Part shown: positions 4,845-61,164 of the stretch, piece after piece
How positions within the stretch are numbered: the stretch's first letter is position 1
Layout: each line of letters starts with the position of its first letter
Assembly (NCBI GenBank): GCA_030432235.1
Contig: JAUIHT010000001.1
Span: 496,001-560,000 of the forward strand
Reading direction: 5' to 3'
DNA: 64,000 bases
Origin: Verrucomicrobiia bacterium
GTDB taxonomy: Bacteria; Verrucomicrobiota; Verrucomicrobiia; Opitutales; Cerasicoccaceae
Made by a program: the position numbers and the translations under genes
Notes under the pieces: generated by a model
Told to the model about the DNA's origin: nothing
The model's database searches: none
The model's input: the letters and a program-made list of their open reading frames with translations, nothing else

Positions 4845-4895
4845 AAGAGGCAGTATCCGCCAAGTCGTTTGCGCGGGCAAGCGTGAAAGAGGGAA

Positions 4896-4983
4896 GAAGC
4901 TAAAAGTCTAAAGCCAAAAGCCCAAAGCTGGGTTCGCTAACTTTTCATCGCTTATCGCTTTCAGCTTTTAGCTTTCGACTTTA
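4896..4983. repeat. Intergenic palindrome of 7-base words (AAAGCNN type)
   Basis: The left half repeats words such as CTAAAAG, TCTAAAG, CCAAAAG and CCCAAAG. The right half holds the complementary words CGCTTAT, CGCTTTC, AGCTTTT and AGCTTTC in a 7-base register. AGCTAAAAG at 4898-4906 pairs perfectly with CTTTTAGCT at 4965-4973, with looser pairing beyond. It fills the gap between ruvC and the bifunctional nuclease gene and reaches the ruvC stop codon. Confidence 0.75.
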
Positions 4984-5568
4984 CGCTGTTTGCCTCCACG
5001 TTAGCGCGTGGCAAAGTGCTGCTGCTGCGGCGTCGGATTCGTCGAAGGGCAGCTCGGTGGCGATGCGCAGGTGCTGTTTGACCAGCGCGGCGACCTGCTC
5101 CTTGCTGGCGCGTCCGTAGCCGACCACGGCCTGTTTGATACGCAGCGGGGCGTACTCGTGGACGGGCAGACCCTCCGCGGCGGCGGGCCCGATGGCGGCC
5201 CCACGGGCCATGCCGAGGATTTGCGCGGTCTGGAAATTCTGCACGTAAATGGTCTGCTCCAGGGCGATGCAGTGCGGGCGATGACGTTCGATCAGCGCGC
5301 TGACGGCCCGATGGATTTCCCCGAGGCATTCCGATTGGGACAATTTCGGCTTCAGTTTCAAGGTGCGGCTGCCCAGCAGTTTGCCCTGGTCCACACCCTT
5401 GGCGAAGTCTACCAGAGCCAGGCCGGTGCCGCGCAGGCTCGGGTCGATGCCCAACACGAGGCCGCGAAACGTGGACGGCCCCATGGCCAGCGCCGGATGG
5501 GCCGACTGACCCGCCACCGGTTTACCGGTCAGCTTGGCCGTCCAGAGAGAGCGCGCGGATTTGGGCAT
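4981..5568 (-). CDS. ruvC: RuvC Holliday junction endonuclease
   Basis: RuvC resolves Holliday junctions with RuvAB during recombination repair. The RNase H-like fold residues are visible: the first acidic residue in GIDPSLRGTG, the Glu in CIALEQTIY, and the terminal pair in DESDAAAAALCHA. The arginine-rich middle region FQTAQILGMARGA is typical. From ATG 5568 the protein is 195 residues. A downstream ATG at 5484 (MGPSTFRGLVLGID) would give 167 residues and put the first Asp close to the N terminus as usual, so it is a serious alternative. Any start upstream of 5568 would translate the palindromic repeat and is rejected. Confidence 0.92.
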   Translation of the reverse strand: MPKSARSLWTAKLTGKPVAGQSAHPALAMGPSTFRGLVLGIDPSLRGTGLALVDFAKGVDQGKLLGSRTLKLKPKLSQSECLGEIHRAVSALIERHRPHCIALEQTIYVQNFQTAQILGMARGAAIGPAAAEGLPVHEYAPLRIKQAVVGYGRASKEQVAALVKQHLRIATELPFDESDAAAAALCHALTWRQTA

Positions 5569-5572
5569 GGAG

Positions 5573-5677
5573 TGAGCTAAAAGCGAAAAGCCGAAAGCAT
5601 AAAGCGGAAATCGTGCTGACGGAAAAACAGTCATTGATGGCTTTTGACTTTTCGCTTTTAGCTTTCAGCTTTTATCC
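5573..5677. repeat. Palindrome of 7-base words filling the ruvC/rluB divergent gap
   Basis: AGCTAAAAGCGAAAAG at 5575-5590 is perfectly complementary to 5648-5663 (16 bp), with further degenerate 7-base words on both sides (AAAGCCG, AAAGCAT, AAAGCGG on the left; GGCTTTT, GACTTTT, CGCTTTT on the right). It spans almost the whole region between the ruvC start at 5568 and the pseudouridine synthase ATG at 5678, so it must also contain or overlap both promoters. It is related in words to the repeat at 4896-4983. Confidence 0.8.
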
Positions 5678-36794: not shown

Positions 36795-38300
36795 TCAATA
36801 GGCTTTGGCGAAGACGACGCGCTGCGGACTTTCCTTGCCGGTGAAGGGGCAGGTGCCGGGCTGGTCGTCGTGCTCAAGGGGGATGCAGCGGATTGTTACC
36901 TTGTGCTCTTTGGCCAGGGCGTCCTCGTCCTCGGCGGAGCCGGCCCAGTGACACAGGGCGAATCCACCATGGATCTCCGGCTTATCGGCGTTCCTGGGTG
37001 TGAAGTATTTTACAAAGTCTTCCTTGGAGTCGATGGAGACGGTGTTCTCGGTCCGGTAGGCCTGGGCGCGTGCCAGGAGGTTGTCCTGGATTTCGTCGAG
37101 GCGCGCGACGAGGGTGTCGATAAACTCGTCGACGTTCACGCCGCTCTTTTCGCCGGTATCGCGGCGCTGGAGTAAGACGGAATTGTTGGCCAGGTCCTTG
37201 GGGCCGACCTCGGCGATGAGCGGGATGCCCTTCTTGACCCAGCCCCAGCGCTTTTCGCCGCCGCGCAGGTCACGTTTGTCCAGCTCTACGCGCAGGGCGT
37301 GGCCGTGGTAGGCTTTTTCCTCGATGCGCTGCTTGAGCTTGTCGCAGAACTCCAGCACGGCGGCGGAGTCGTCCCCGCGCAGGACGGGCAGGATGGCGAC
37401 GTGGCTGGGGGCGAGCTTGGGCGGCAGGATGAGGCCGTCGTCGTCGGCGTGCGTCATGATCATGCCGCCGATGAGGCGGGTGGAGACGCCCCAGGAGGTG
37501 GTCCAGGCATATTCCAGCTCCCCGCTTTCGCTTTGGAATTTGATATCAAAACCTTTGGCGAAGTTTTGGCCGAGGAAGTGGCTGGTGCCGGCCTGCAGGG
37601 CCTTACGGTCCTGCATCATCGCCTCAATGCAGTAGGTGTGGTCGGCCCCGGGGAAGCGTTCGCCGGCTGTCTTTTCGCCCTTGATGACGGGCATGGCCAT
37701 CCAGTTCTCGGCAAAGTCGGCATAGACATCGAGCATCTTGCGGGTCTCTTCCATGGCCTCCTCGCTGGTGGCGTGGACGGTGTGGCCCTCCTGCCAGAGG
37801 AACTCCGCGGTGCGCAGGAACAGACGCGTGCGCATCTCCCAGCGGACGACGTTGGCCCACTGGTTAATCAATAAAGGCAGGTCGCGGTAGCTCTGGACCC
37901 ACTTCGAGTAAACCTCGCCGATGATGGTCTCCGAAGTGGGGCGGACGACCAATGGCTCTTCGAGGGGGCCGGCGGGCTTCAGGCCGCCCTGGCCGTCGTC
38001 CTCCAGACGGTGGTGGGTAACCACGGCGCACTCCTTGGCAAAGCCTTCGACGTGCTTGGCCTCGCGCTCAAGGTAGCTTTTGGGGATAAAGAGCGGGAAG
38101 TAGGCGTTGCGGTGTCCGGTGGCCTTGAACATGCCGTCGAGGACGCGCTGGATGTTTTCCCACAGTTCGTAGCCCCATGGCTTGATGACCATGCAGCCGC
38201 GTACGGGCGAATTTTCCGCCAGATCGGCGGCTTTGATGACTTGCTGGTACCACTCGGGGTAGTCCTCGGCGCGGGTAGGCGTGATTGCGGTCTTGGGCAT
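36795..38300 (-). CDS. proS: Prolyl-tRNA synthetase, eukaryote/archaea-type (ProS type 3)
   Basis: A 501-residue class II aminoacyl-tRNA synthetase charging tRNA-Pro. The N terminus YPEWYQQVIKAADLAENSPVRGCMVIKPWGYELWE, motif 2 RWEMRTRLFLRTAEFLWQEGHT and motif 3-region TSWGVSTRLIGGMIM match the type without the bacterial editing insertion. The C-terminal zinc-like domain with Cys in ALCHWAGS, IRCIPLE and GTCPFTG and the closing Tyr (FAKAY) are hallmarks of the archaeal/eukaryotic type. It is upstream of, and divergent from, the GxxExxY element. Confidence 0.93.
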   Translation of the reverse strand: MPKTAITPTRAEDYPEWYQQVIKAADLAENSPVRGCMVIKPWGYELWENIQRVLDGMFKATGHRNAYFPLFIPKSYLEREAKHVEGFAKECAVVTHHRLEDDGQGGLKPAGPLEEPLVVRPTSETIIGEVYSKWVQSYRDLPLLINQWANVVRWEMRTRLFLRTAEFLWQEGHTVHATSEEAMEETRKMLDVYADFAENWMAMPVIKGEKTAGERFPGADHTYCIEAMMQDRKALQAGTSHFLGQNFAKGFDIKFQSESGELEYAWTTSWGVSTRLIGGMIMTHADDDGLILPPKLAPSHVAILPVLRGDDSAAVLEFCDKLKQRIEEKAYHGHALRVELDKRDLRGGEKRWGWVKKGIPLIAEVGPKDLANNSVLLQRRDTGEKSGVNVDEFIDTLVARLDEIQDNLLARAQAYRTENTVSIDSKEDFVKYFTPRNADKPEIHGGFALCHWAGSAEDEDALAKEHKVTIRCIPLEHDDQPGTCPFTGKESPQRVVFAKAY

Positions 38301-38315
38301 AGAGGGGAAGGAGTT

Positions 38316-38387
38316 TCACGCAAAGAAGCAAAGCAGCAAAGACATTTTTTACGGAATAAATCTTGGCCGCTTAGCTGCTCGGCGTGA
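38316..38387. repeat. Hairpin copy 1 of 8-base words, left of the GxxExxY gene
   Basis: The words GCAAAGAA, GCAAAGCA and GCAAAGAC run in an 8-base register at 38320-38343. They are followed by a short AT-rich loop and complementary words ending in GGCGTGA at 38381-38387. Arms match at 20 of 26 positions. GCAAAGCAGCAAAGAC (38328-38343) recurs exactly at 38791-38806, right of the nuclease gene, in direct orientation. Confidence 0.85.
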
Positions 38388-38400
38388 TGTTTAGTGTATT

Positions 38401-38784
38401 ATGATGGAAAATAATATTGGTAAAATAGTCGTAGATGCTTCGATAAAAGTTCATAATGCTCTTGGACCTGGGTTACTGGAGCATGTTTATGAAATTGTGT
38501 TGGCAAAAGAGCTTGAGAGCCACGGACTACGGGTTTGTCGGCAAGTGCCTGTGAAAATTGAATATATGGGTGAGGTATTTGAGGAGGGTTTTCGTGCGGA
38601 TTTGATTGTTGAAGACAAAGTTATCATCGAACTGAAATCCGTGGAAGCACTCAATAAAGTCGCAGCAAAACAGCTATTCACCTACCTGAAACTAACTCGC
38701 GTCAAACTCGGGTTTGTTTTGAATTTTGGTCAGGGACTCATGAAAGACGGTATCCAAAGAGTCGTATGTGGTCTCGAGGACTAA
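38401..38784 (+). CDS. GxxExxY protein (PD-(D/E)XK nuclease-like)
   Basis: A 127-residue member of the GxxExxY family, named for the motif visible in LGPGLLEHVYE. The nuclease core is suggested by EEGFRADLIVEDKVIIELKSVEAL, which gives Asp, then Glu-x-Lys in the PD-(D/E)XK pattern, and by QLFTYLKLTRVKLGFVLNFG. The function is unknown. It has the lowest GC content in its surroundings. It is flanked on both sides by copies of the same 8-base-word hairpin, so gene plus hairpins may form a small mobile unit. ATG 38401 is followed directly by a second ATG. Confidence 0.85.
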   Translation: MMENNIGKIVVDASIKVHNALGPGLLEHVYEIVLAKELESHGLRVCRQVPVKIEYMGEVFEEGFRADLIVEDKVIIELKSVEALNKVAAKQLFTYLKLTRVKLGFVLNFGQGLMKDGIQRVVCGLED

Positions 38785-38790
38785 CCTTAG

Positions 38791-38848
38791 GCAAAGCAGC
38801 AAAGACTTTTGGGGCATAACCGCTTGGCTGCTTTGCTGCTTGGCGTGA
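38791..38848. repeat. Hairpin copy 2 of 8-base words, right of the GxxExxY gene
   Basis: GCAAAGCAGCAAAG at 38791-38804 pairs at 13 of 14 positions with 38831-38844. It has the same layout and orientation as copy 1 at 38316-38387, starting with the identical 16 bases and ending with the same GGCGTGA. The outer ends of the whole unit (38316-38343 and 38821-38848) are also inverted repeats, matching at 23 of 28 positions. Confidence 0.85.
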
Positions 38849-38851
38849 GAC

Positions 38852-40240
38852 TTATTCAGGGATGTTTTCAGCAACATCCTCCAGCGGGTAGGTCCAAATC
38901 TCCGACAGGGTGGGGTGGTACCAGTGCGTGTCGAGGAGCTGCCGCGCGGTGGCGCCGAGGCTGACGGCCACGCTGAGGGCGTGGATGAGCTCGGAGGCGT
39001 CCTTGCCTACACACTCGGCGGCAAGGATGCGTCCGGTGGTTTTCTCCGCGTGGACTTTCACGTAGCCGTACTTGGCCTCCATGAGGATGCTCTTGCCGTG
39101 GTCGTCGAAGGGGTAGTCCGCCGACACGTAGGCGATGCCGCGCTTTTTGATTTCTTCCTCGGGCAGGCCGACATAGGCCACCTGCGGGTCGGTGAAAATG
39201 ACGCCCAGCAGCGTGTCGTAGTTGACGGGCTTGGCCGGTCGCCCGAAGGCATGACGCGCGGCCAGCTCGCCCTGCAGGATGGCGATGTGGACAATCTCGT
39301 GCGGCCCGGCGATATCCCCGGCGGCGTAGACGTGGAAGTTGCTACTTTGCTGGTGCTCGTTCGTGGCGATGTGGCCGGAGCCGGCCAGGTCGATCCCGGC
39401 GGCTTCGAGGTTGAGGTTTGCCGTGTTGGGCTTGCGCCCGAGGGCGTTGAAGAGGTGTTTGGCGGACTTGACCATGCGCTGCCCCTGATGGTCGAAGTAG
39501 ACGCGCACGCCGCCGTCGCCGGTGGCCTCGATGCGATTCAGCTTGGTATCGGTGACGAGGTCGATGCCTTCATCCTTGAAGGCTTCTTCGACCACGGCGG
39601 AAGCCTCGGGTGAAACTTCCTTGAGGATACGCGGGCTGCGCTGGATTTGTGTGACTTTCGTGCCGATGCGGGCGAGGAACTGCGCCAGCTCGCAGGCTAC
39701 GATGCCACCGCCGAGCACGATGACGGACTCCGGTACCTCGGAGAGGTCGAGGATGTCGTCGCTGGTCCAGACGGGTACCTTGTCCAGACCGGGTACGGGC
39801 GGGAAGTTGACCGTCGAGCCGGTGGCCACGAGGATTTTTTCCGCCGTCAGGACGGTGCCGTCTTTCAGGGTGACTTCCCGCTCCCCGGTGAATTTTGCCG
39901 GTTGCTGGAAAAGGTCGAACTTGCCGCCGGTGAGCTGCTCCTGGCGGTATTCAGCGAATTCGCCGATGGTGCGCAGCTTACGCTGATGCAGCAGAGGCAT
40001 GTCCACGCTGGCCTGTGGGATGTTGAGGCCGAAGGCGCGTGCCTTTTGCGCCAGGTGCAGGACCTCGGCGGAGTAGATGAGTGTTTTCGAGGGCATGCAG
40101 CCGCGCAGGATGCATAGCCCGCCCAGTTCCTTCGCGCCGTCGACCACCGCCACGCTCTCGGTGAACTCCAGTGCGGTGCGGGCGGCGGCGTAACCGGCGC
40201 TGCCGCCACCGAGGACCAGAAAATCGTAGTGCTTGCTCAT
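38852..40240 (-). CDS. Pyridine nucleotide-disulfide oxidoreductase (FAD-dependent)
   Basis: A 462-residue flavoprotein of the dihydrolipoamide dehydrogenase/mercuric reductase type. It has the FAD motif FLVLGGGSAGYAAART, a redox disulfide in GGLCILRGCMPSKT (CxxxxC), the NAD motif VIVLGGGIVACELAQFL, the FAD signature FHVYAAGDIAG and the C-terminal catalytic His in HWYHPTLSEIW. The substrate is not clear: no acyl-carrying 2-oxoacid dehydrogenase or merA N-terminal domain is nearby. ATG 40240 was chosen because the FAD motif starts at residue 7. Confidence 0.88.
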   Translation of the reverse strand: MSKHYDFLVLGGGSAGYAAARTALEFTESVAVVDGAKELGGLCILRGCMPSKTLIYSAEVLHLAQKARAFGLNIPQASVDMPLLHQRKLRTIGEFAEYRQEQLTGGKFDLFQQPAKFTGEREVTLKDGTVLTAEKILVATGSTVNFPPVPGLDKVPVWTSDDILDLSEVPESVIVLGGGIVACELAQFLARIGTKVTQIQRSPRILKEVSPEASAVVEEAFKDEGIDLVTDTKLNRIEATGDGGVRVYFDHQGQRMVKSAKHLFNALGRKPNTANLNLEAAGIDLAGSGHIATNEHQQSSNFHVYAAGDIAGPHEIVHIAILQGELAARHAFGRPAKPVNYDTLLGVIFTDPQVAYVGLPEEEIKKRGIAYVSADYPFDDHGKSILMEAKYGYVKVHAEKTTGRILAAECVGKDASELIHALSVAVSLGATARQLLDTHWYHPTLSEIWTYPLEDVAENIPE

Positions 40241-40312
40241 GGATAAATGCTCTGATGAGATAGGTGCCAGCGCGGATATGTTGCCGCGTAGTCCAATATT
40301 GATTTTCCCGCC

Positions 40313-41860
40313 ATGTCTTGCAAAACCCAAACGCTTTTTTGTCTGATTTTTACCTGTGCCGCGCCGCTATTTGCCGCGCCGCCCCCCGCGCCTGAATTCG
40401 ACTATGCTGACCCGCCACAGGGGCTCTTTGTCGATGAGTGGATGGAGATGCGGCTGGGCGAGGGGAAGGTCGGCTGGTCCCATACCACCTTCACGCGCCG
40501 GGGAGACGAAGTGCACGCACGCAGCGATTCGTACATGAAGATGGCGCGTGGGGCCATCCCGATTCAGGTCGAGACCTCCGAGCGTACCGTGGAGAGCGTC
40601 GATGGTCAGCCGCACAACTTTGAGACGCATATGAAGCTTTCCGGCCAGGACATCGTGACGATAGGCACGGTGCTGGACGGCAAGGTGTCCGTCACGACCA
40701 AGGGCCCCGGCTACGCGGATACCCAGGAGTATGCCTTCCCGGAAGGCGCGCTCATGACCTGGGGTCTGGCGCAGAAGACCTTCGAGGAGGGCATTGAGCC
40801 CGGGACCGAGTATTCGGTGATGATGTACAGCCCCAGCATGAGCGCGCAGCAGGCGTTGCCGGGCACGGTCAGCATCGGTGAGCCGGAAACGTTCGATTAC
40901 TTCGGCACTGCCATGCGTGGGCCCAAGGTGACGACCACCCTGCACGCCGGGCCGGCGGAGATCGTTACCAACGGCTGGGCGGACGAAAATGGGCGGCTGC
41001 TTGTGACCAAGATGGACATGATGGGCATGCCCCTGACCATGGTGGTGGTCGATCAGGAAACGGCCCTGGCGGACTTCGTGCCGCCGGAGTTTTTCGTCTC
41101 CAATCTTATTCAGCTCAAGCGAGCCATCCCGCCGGACGCCGACGAGGTGACCTATGCCCTGCGGCTCAAGAGCGGCGACTTCAACGAGGCGCTCCCGCCG
41201 GAAACGAAAACCCAGAGCGTCCAGTTTAACGACCGTAGCGGGGTCGTCCGGGTGAAGGTGCGCCGGGCCGAGCATATGGAGCTCAACACGGGAGTGAACC
41301 TGTCCCTGAGCGGTACGTTCGTGCCCTATATGAAGGCCAATCTGGTCATCAACAGCAAAGACCCGGCAGTCATCGCCCTGGCGAAAAAGTCCCCCGCCAA
41401 TAAAGAGGAGAGCGCCTTGGAAAAAGCCTACGCGTTAACGCATTTCGTCAACCGCTTCATCGAGGAAAAGCACCTCGGGATCGGCTTTGCCACCGCCAGC
41501 GAGGTGGCTCAGGATCCGCAGGGCGATTGCAGCGAGCACGCCGTGCTGCTGGCCGCCCTGGGCCGGGTGGAGGGCATCCCCAGTCGCGTGGCCGCCGGGC
41601 TGCTTTACCTGCCGAGCTATGAGGGCCACAAGGACATCATGGGCTACCATATGTGGACACAGTTCCACATCGGCGGGCAGTGGCTCGACTTCGACGCCAC
41701 CACCGACGAGCAGGTTGCCGGCCCCACTCGCATCGCCTTGTACTACTCTTCGCTCCAGGACGAGTCCCTGGCGCAACTCGGCCTCGCTCTTATTGATACC
41801 ATCGGGAACCTGGACGTCGAGGTCGTCGAGGTGAAAACAGAAGCCACAGAGGAGCAATAA
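40313..41860 (+). CDS. Exported transglutaminase-like protein
   Basis: A 515-residue protein with a signal peptide (MSCKTQTLFCLIFTCAAPLFA) and a C-terminal transglutaminase-core domain: catalytic Cys in PQGDCSEHAVLLAALGR, His in GYHMWTQFHIGGQW, Asp in LDFDATTDEQ. The N-terminal 300 residues are strand-rich and resemble the domain often preceding this core in bacterial periplasmic proteins. A protease or amidase role on peptides is more likely than cross-linking, but this is inference. It is divergent from the flavoprotein and three bases from the convergent GNAT-nitrilase. Confidence 0.85.
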   Translation: MSCKTQTLFCLIFTCAAPLFAAPPPAPEFDYADPPQGLFVDEWMEMRLGEGKVGWSHTTFTRRGDEVHARSDSYMKMARGAIPIQVETSERTVESVDGQPHNFETHMKLSGQDIVTIGTVLDGKVSVTTKGPGYADTQEYAFPEGALMTWGLAQKTFEEGIEPGTEYSVMMYSPSMSAQQALPGTVSIGEPETFDYFGTAMRGPKVTTTLHAGPAEIVTNGWADENGRLLVTKMDMMGMPLTMVVVDQETALADFVPPEFFVSNLIQLKRAIPPDADEVTYALRLKSGDFNEALPPETKTQSVQFNDRSGVVRVKVRRAEHMELNTGVNLSLSGTFVPYMKANLVINSKDPAVIALAKKSPANKEESALEKAYALTHFVNRFIEEKHLGIGFATASEVAQDPQGDCSEHAVLLAALGRVEGIPSRVAAGLLYLPSYEGHKDIMGYHMWTQFHIGGQWLDFDATTDEQVAGPTRIALYYSSLQDESLAQLGLALIDTIGNLDVEVVEVKTEATEEQ

Positions 41861-61027: not shown

Positions 61028-61164
61028 GAAGTGCTCTAGTGCTTGGTACTTAGTGCTTCGTTTTTCATTTATGACTTACCGTTCTATGCCAGAGCCAAGC
61101 GTCAGGCCCTACATACCAAAACACTCCCAAACCAAGCACCAGGCACCAAGCACTAGAGCACTTC
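61028..61164. repeat. Large palindrome of 7-base words between trkA and trkH
   Basis: GAAGTGCTCTAGTGCTTGG at 61028-61046 is perfectly complementary to 61146-61164 (19 bp). Counting 36 bases inward, 32 positions pair. The arms are built of 7-base words AGTGCTT, GGTACTT, AGTGCTT on the left and AAGCACC, AGGCACC, AAGCACT on the right. It occupies the whole intercistronic space from the TAA of trkA to just before trkH. Confidence 0.9.

Follow-up and report, generated by a model that had tools for sequence, protein, structure and literature searches.

Here we describe a gene for a GxxExxY nuclease which, together with the repeats around it, probably represents a widespread minimal mobile element whose nuclease acts at the DNA level on the palindrome of its own short word; the catalytic step is one that we infer. 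The gene lies in a stretch of 64,000 nucleotides from a Verrucomicrobiia bacterium, referred to below as the window. GxxExxY proteins form a common, sporadically distributed nuclease family of 'unknown' role, and intergenic repeats of the CGCAAAG, CACAGAG and CACGGAT type are likewise common and unexplained; the latter are now tied to the former. As a candidate function we propose a one-gene mobile element in which the word repeats are the cognate site of the nuclease. Judged from a limited literature check and from its anatomy, the unit of GxxExxY gene and word palindrome appears to be a minimal mobile element of a kind not described before: a search that covered the open-access literature delivered no paper linking GxxExxY to repeats.

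The nuclease gene and its hairpins in the window

The following features were assigned in the window.

38314..38342, plus strand: 5' arm of the left hairpin and outer 5' arm of the element (TTTCACGCAAAGAAGCAAAGCAGCAAAGA; the word GCAAAG three times with period 8), found by repeat and arm detection
38361..38387, plus strand: 3' arm of the left hairpin, degraded, with the terminus GGCGTGA, recognized by eye
38401..38784, plus strand: open reading frame (ORF) of 127 amino acids for the GxxExxY / PDDEXK_3 nuclease, with G24-x-x-E27-x-x-Y30, D67, E77-x-K79 and Q91 intact, from profile matches, alignment and a model with pLDDT 95
38790..38806, plus strand: partial 5' arm of the right hairpin (GGCAAAGCAGCAAAGAC), found by repeat detection
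38821..38849, plus strand: 3' arm of the right hairpin and outer 3' arm of the element (CGCTTGGCTGCTTTGCTGCTTGGCGTGAG), from the inverted pair 38307-38341 / 38823-38857

The first-pass annotation had placed the gene between two direct copies of one hairpin, and both were recovered: the 16-mer GCAAAGCAGCAAAGAC occurs twice in identical form, at 38328 and 38791, and each hairpin terminates in GGCGTGA (38381 and 38842). At its outer ends the unit has inverted repeats, as had also been noted; they pair over 35 nt (38307-38341 with 38823-38857) and are 83% complementary. The best inverted match between the two flanks of 110 nt scores 20.0, against a maximum of 16.5 in 2000 dinucleotide shuffles, none of which (0/2000) equals it. 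The left side reads TTTCACGCAAAGAAGCAAAGCAGCAAAGA...TCTTGGCCGCTTAGCTGCTCGGCGTGA and the right side GGCAAAGCAGCAAAGAC...CGCTTGGCTGCTTTGCTGCTTGGCGTGAG; the left hairpin is degraded, and the right hairpin lacks the outer part of its 5' arm. This arrangement of hairpin, gene and hairpin is a minority variant, relatives mostly having the gene in the loop of a single palindrome. Three further loci (L072, L039 and L199) resemble the window in that direct copies of the arm or hairpin flank the gene, which is not inside one palindrome.

From their translations, we take the neighbors to be proS (36795-38300, minus strand) and a dihydrolipoamide-dehydrogenase-like (lpd-like) gene (38852-40330, minus strand). 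The GxxExxY gene is antisense to both, a position shared by only 7 of 135 GxxExxY genes including this one, versus 95 of 135 that are co-directional with both neighbors. Because the gene order proS-lpd is found solely in the genome of the window among those searched, its own site yields no informative empty site. In genome G008, where proS and the lpd-like gene lie in separate places, a gene-less CACGGAT hairpin is present upstream of the former and another downstream of the latter (L346, L361). The window itself also holds three gene-less word-iterated hairpins (4889-4996, 5575-5663 and 61028-61164), with words of the classes seen beside the IVP genes treated below (AAAAGCC, TAGTGCTT).

The protein matches PF13366 (PDDEXK_3, E 8e-40) and TIGR04256 (GxxExxY, E 4e-39), with scores well above the curated cut-offs (133 bits versus 35 and 136 bits versus 22). 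In the family alignment G24, E27, Y30, K79, Q91 and N108 are invariant and D67 and E77 nearly so. The predicted model is a confident PD-(D/E)XK fold (pLDDT 95) whose best structural match is Cas4 SSO0001 (Z 9.4), followed by restriction enzymes and Hjc Holliday resolvases (Z about 6-7). The modeled fold fits a DNA nuclease and leaves the substrate unfixed. The window protein shares 75% identity with that of L139 and 62-64% with proteins from Planctomycetota and Roseiflexus, versus 28-39% with the other copies compared from its own genome; on these identities, kinship among the proteins is unlike kinship among their hosts.

Palindromes beside other GxxExxY genes

In the usual layout the ORF occupies the loop of one palindrome, the arms of which consist of three to four copies of a 7-base word of the class CRCRRAK. 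Among 96 arm pairs the median arm length is 30 nt, and the median distances are 7 nt from the 5' arm to the start of the ORF and 9.5 nt from its stop to the 3' arm. Three or more copies of a 6-mer, spaced by 7-11 nt, occur in 63 of the 96 5' arms, as compared to 121 of 1920 dinucleotide-shuffled arms. Most words fit CRCRRAK, among them CACGGAG, CGCAAAG, CACAGAG and CGCGGAT; the word is GGGAAG in one clade and AGCAAAG in another. A typical element, L145, reads CCCGCAGAGACGCAGAGGCGCAGAG-ATG ... TAG-CTCTCTGCGTCTCTGCGTCTCTGCGGG.

The genome of the window carries four GxxExxY genes, all four beside word-iterated repeats and each with a distinct word (CACGAAG, GCAAAG, CACGGAT, CACAAAG). Within the host order the family is present in 19 of 36 genomes. 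With flanks of 260 nt and an arm score cut-off of 14, inverted arms surround 58 of 75 intact GxxExxY genes versus 5 of 418 random spans from the same loci; with flanks of 100 nt the figures are 49/75 versus 6/261 neighboring genes. About a quarter of the GxxExxY genes in the order are without a detectable arm pair. A second sample of 80 loci from more than 15 phyla, including Verrucomicrobiota, Planctomycetota, Chloroflexi, Desulfobacterota, Cyanobacteria, Bacteroidota, Acidobacteria, Armatimonadota and Alphaproteobacteria, was gathered with 8 closer proteins, 27 diverse proteins having given no conserved stretch. Here arms scoring at least 12 surround 42 of 77 GxxExxY genes versus 6 of 541 other genes. 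The enrichment of palindromes beside other family members that the first-pass annotation had anticipated is thus clear in both samples, and its remark that GCAAAG-type repeats precede other GxxExxY genes proved correct for loci from many phyla. Chance association caused by abundant intergenic repeats was considered and is ruled out by the control genes at the same loci.

Statements on whole genomes are based on pattern searches and samples. Triple CRCRRAK arrays were found phylum-wide in 61 of 102 genomes with GxxExxY and in 6 of 93 without it (Fisher 3e-16), the control matches being few. The excess persists after stratification by host family (z 3.1, stratum counts tallied by hand).

Movement, landing sites and known systems

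The unit of arm, ORF and arm is mobile and has defined ends at different sites. Two copies in one genome, L026 and L040, lie 2.3 kb apart; their ORFs are identical at 364 of 381 positions (95.5%), their flanks are unrelated, and on either side homology stops where the arm has its outer end, as it does in the pair L124/L133. Since the homology of L026 and L040 is confined within the outer arm ends, the arm-ORF-arm unit is what moves. No target-site duplication is evident in this pair, and no clean filled and empty pair of very close strains was found.

Five intergenic sites that hold an element in some relative were compared across as many as 19 relatives; they were located with a chimeric query of five gene starts, which had no other use. 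A single hairpin had been expected to remain where the gene is absent. At each of the five sites other relatives have either a gene-less word hairpin, mostly of another word, or nothing. Upstream of topA, GxxExxY elements are present in G001, G005, G006 and G009, gene-less hairpins in G003, G004 and G007, and neither in G002 and G008. Upstream of pheT, GxxExxY elements occur in G005 and G009, an IVP (PF05635) element in G007 and gene-less hairpins in G004, G006 and G008. The topA hairpin of G003 matches the arm of the pheT element of its sister species G005 at 33/33 nt, and G003 retains a decayed, internally deleted copy of the gene of that element. L254 is another internally deleted copy, which keeps the C-terminal GxxExxY codons. 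On account of these two copies, gene-less hairpins are at least partly deletion derivatives. Movement is not frequent, because elements can be kept at one site across genus-level divergence.

Genome G116 has 182 CGCGAAG triple-word sites, and the arms of its sole detected GxxExxY gene are of ACAGAT type. Considered as a case of amplification in trans, it gave no support for this, and some palindromes are therefore not accounted for by a nuclease that shares both their word and their genome. The CGCGAAG triples on contig C1 of this genome are often clustered at a spacing of 130-165 bp; they lie mostly on the minus strand up to 1.7 Mb and on the plus strand at 2.4-3.0 Mb, suggesting an orientation with replication.

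Genes for PF05635 proteins (23S rRNA intervening sequence proteins, IVP; four-helix bundles) are also found in word-iterated palindromes (L082-L111, for example L095, L093, L091, L109 and L111). Arms scoring at least 14 surround 9 of 27 IVP genes versus 5 of 418 random spans. Their words (GGCTGTGG, AAAAGCC, TGGGTT, GGTGCTT) are of a class unlike that of GxxExxY; CRCRRAK words are present in 55 of 96 GxxExxY arms versus 0 of 9 IVP arms. Both genes co-occur in 17 genomes, with one only in 1 and 2 genomes and neither in 16 (Fisher 6e-7). The parallel suggests a general, overlooked class of elements. Upstream of pheT (L067, L070, L101) and gltD (L035, L102) in several relatives, GxxExxY and IVP elements occupy one and the same gap in different species, as if these gaps were landing sites common to both.

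Among the known systems close to it, REP-RAYT (TnpA_REP) likewise has short intergenic palindromes around a lone nuclease gene, and numerous copies that are gene-less; the basis proposed for it is that the enzyme recognizes the palindrome (PMC8266576). The likeness, proposed in the first-pass annotation, extends to the bracketing palindrome, which is also present in the genome without the gene, and it ends at the enzyme: RAYT is an HuH Y1 transposase, whereas only PDDEXK_3/GxxExxY, a PD-(D/E)XK nuclease, was found here. Moreover, the arms are iterated 7-base words, the gene is usually inside one palindrome, and a genome may have several words, each with its own GxxExxY copy. Gene-less copies can match an element's arm, as in the topA hairpin of G003, with G116 as the counter-example. 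The GxxExxY element works like REP-RAYT and, having no HuH Y1 enzyme, is not a member of it.

The intervening sequences (IVSs) of 23S rRNA with an S23p/IVP ORF (PF05635) are likewise selfish elements with the ORF in a hairpin loop (PMC4990558). Unlike these, GxxExxY is unrelated to S23p, uses another word class and occupies intergenic sites between protein genes (proS and the lpd-like gene in the window), not rRNA. Insertion sequences and MITEs share the single gene between inverted repeats, the movement as a unit and the internally deleted relatives; GxxExxY differs in that profile searches of the window protein found no known transposase domain, in the iterated-word arms that evolve in concert, in the far smaller size of about 0.46 kb and in that no target-site duplication was seen. 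Nucleases of the Cas4 / Hjc type have the same fold and pattern of catalytic residues, but GxxExxY is the minimal core only and has no CRISPR context at the loci read; the function is not given by this fold alone.

Words, nucleases and alternative explanations

The words belong to the nuclease and track the protein, whether or not sites and hosts are related. Among elements at different sites, the more similar the proteins, the more similar the words (Spearman 0.277, maximum of 500 permutations 0.174), and this also applies when the host family is compared with all other bacteria (Spearman 0.286; maximum 0.178, 0/2000 permutations). Sharing a genome scarcely raises the similarity of words (0.125, versus 0.108 between genomes), and covariation of protein and word within genomes is no more than suggestive (p 0.076).

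Words also change in concert at an orthologous site, which lies upstream of an SDR gene. The elements there (60-78% amino acid identity of GxxExxY) have retained four words per arm in 2-4-2 spacing, and purifying selection on their ORF is strong (dN/dS 0.05-0.2). L021 has the word CACAAAG, L001 CACGAAG and L013 CACAGAG, and the words of L036 are mixed. Between L021 and L001, 7 of 8 words are changed at position 4, versus 3 of 48 cells for all other positions (Fisher 4e-6, a value that is too small as the two arms are not independent); between L021 and L013 position 5 differs in 8 of 8. A change shared by all words would not come from independent point mutation with compensation between arms. 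It is unusual for eight dispersed words of a single locus to change jointly, and this indicates active rewriting.

According to the proposed explanation, the element is a palindrome with arms of about 30 nt, each of three to four copies of one 7-base word, enclosing a single GxxExxY PD-(D/E)XK gene. The unit of about 0.46 kb moves into intergenic sites, mostly within operons and in the same direction, and internally deleted copies remain as gene-less hairpins. The nuclease would recognize its cognate word in the palindrome as DNA, in a cruciform or a fold-back single strand, and then nick; repair from the opposite arm, or from a word one register off, would rewrite the arms. Rewriting templated in this way would keep the arms palindromic and shift all words together, and the repair may sometimes copy the palindrome or the element to new places. 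Nicking with fold-back repair would explain arms intact at saturated synonymous divergence, the iteration of words, their concerted change and the covariation of protein and word. The more specific reading, that the DNA address of the nuclease is its own palindrome word, that nicking and fold-back repair rewrite the arms so that specificity and address co-evolve, and that the unrelated PF05635 IVP reached the same architecture with a different word class, is put forward tentatively, as possible rather than probable. The first-pass annotation had GxxExxY nucleases create, move or maintain palindromes: movement is borne out by element copies whose homology stops at the arms, maintenance indirectly by concerted word change and covariation, and the protein itself may cut, create or move the palindromes, or act in trans in the way proposed for RAYTs. 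Should a short word in hairpin DNA be what the protein reads, the natural protein-word pairs from many phyla would be a ready specificity code.

The main rival supposes that word palindromes are intergenic elements that move independently or arise again and again, through host repair or another enzyme, and that GxxExxY is one of several small genes which colonize their loops in the manner of a homing parasite that targets the palindrome. The occurrence of the unrelated PF05635 in palindromes of this kind, built from other words, speaks for it, as do the intergenic sites holding GxxExxY, IVP or gene-less hairpins in different relatives, and G116, rich in palindromes of a word that its GxxExxY does not use. 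However, we consider it unlikely, given that the class of word varies with the family of the protein (CRCRRAK in 55/96 versus 0/9 arms), that words follow the GxxExxY lineage across hosts, that triple-word arrays are rare in genomes without GxxExxY and that element copies move together with their arms.

Compared to an element acting on DNA, a role in RNA is improbable, in which the arms would pair once transcribed and thereby control how the ORF or the operon is processed or translated, as in 23S rRNA IVSs. The layout is the same, with the ORF in a hairpin loop (PMC4990558), the ORF starts close to the arm (median 7 nt), most genes are co-directional with both neighbors (95/135), and penultimate words resemble Shine-Dalgarno sequences. 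If arms were kept for pairing in the transcript, mismatches that are G-U-compatible in sense RNA would be expected to outnumber those of the opposite type; 74 were counted versus 106, which gives no signature of sense-RNA pairing, and selection for a sense-RNA hairpin was dropped as unsupported. Pairing, moreover, neither needs identical words nor explains their concerted change. In the period-8 arms of L061, L145, L165 and others the penultimate word places GAGG or GGAG about 8 nt 5' of the ATG, and the arm may double as Shine-Dalgarno sequence in these elements.

Least probable is that host regulatory or structural palindromes (terminators, mRNA stabilizers) hold a stably resident gene whose movement is incidental: several sites are common to genera and the protein is under strong purifying selection, but presence is patchy, sites are empty, gene-less or replaced in sister species, a duplicate stands at a new site (L026/L040), and the close relatives of the protein are in distant phyla (75%, 62-64%) while the co-resident copies compared share 28-39%.
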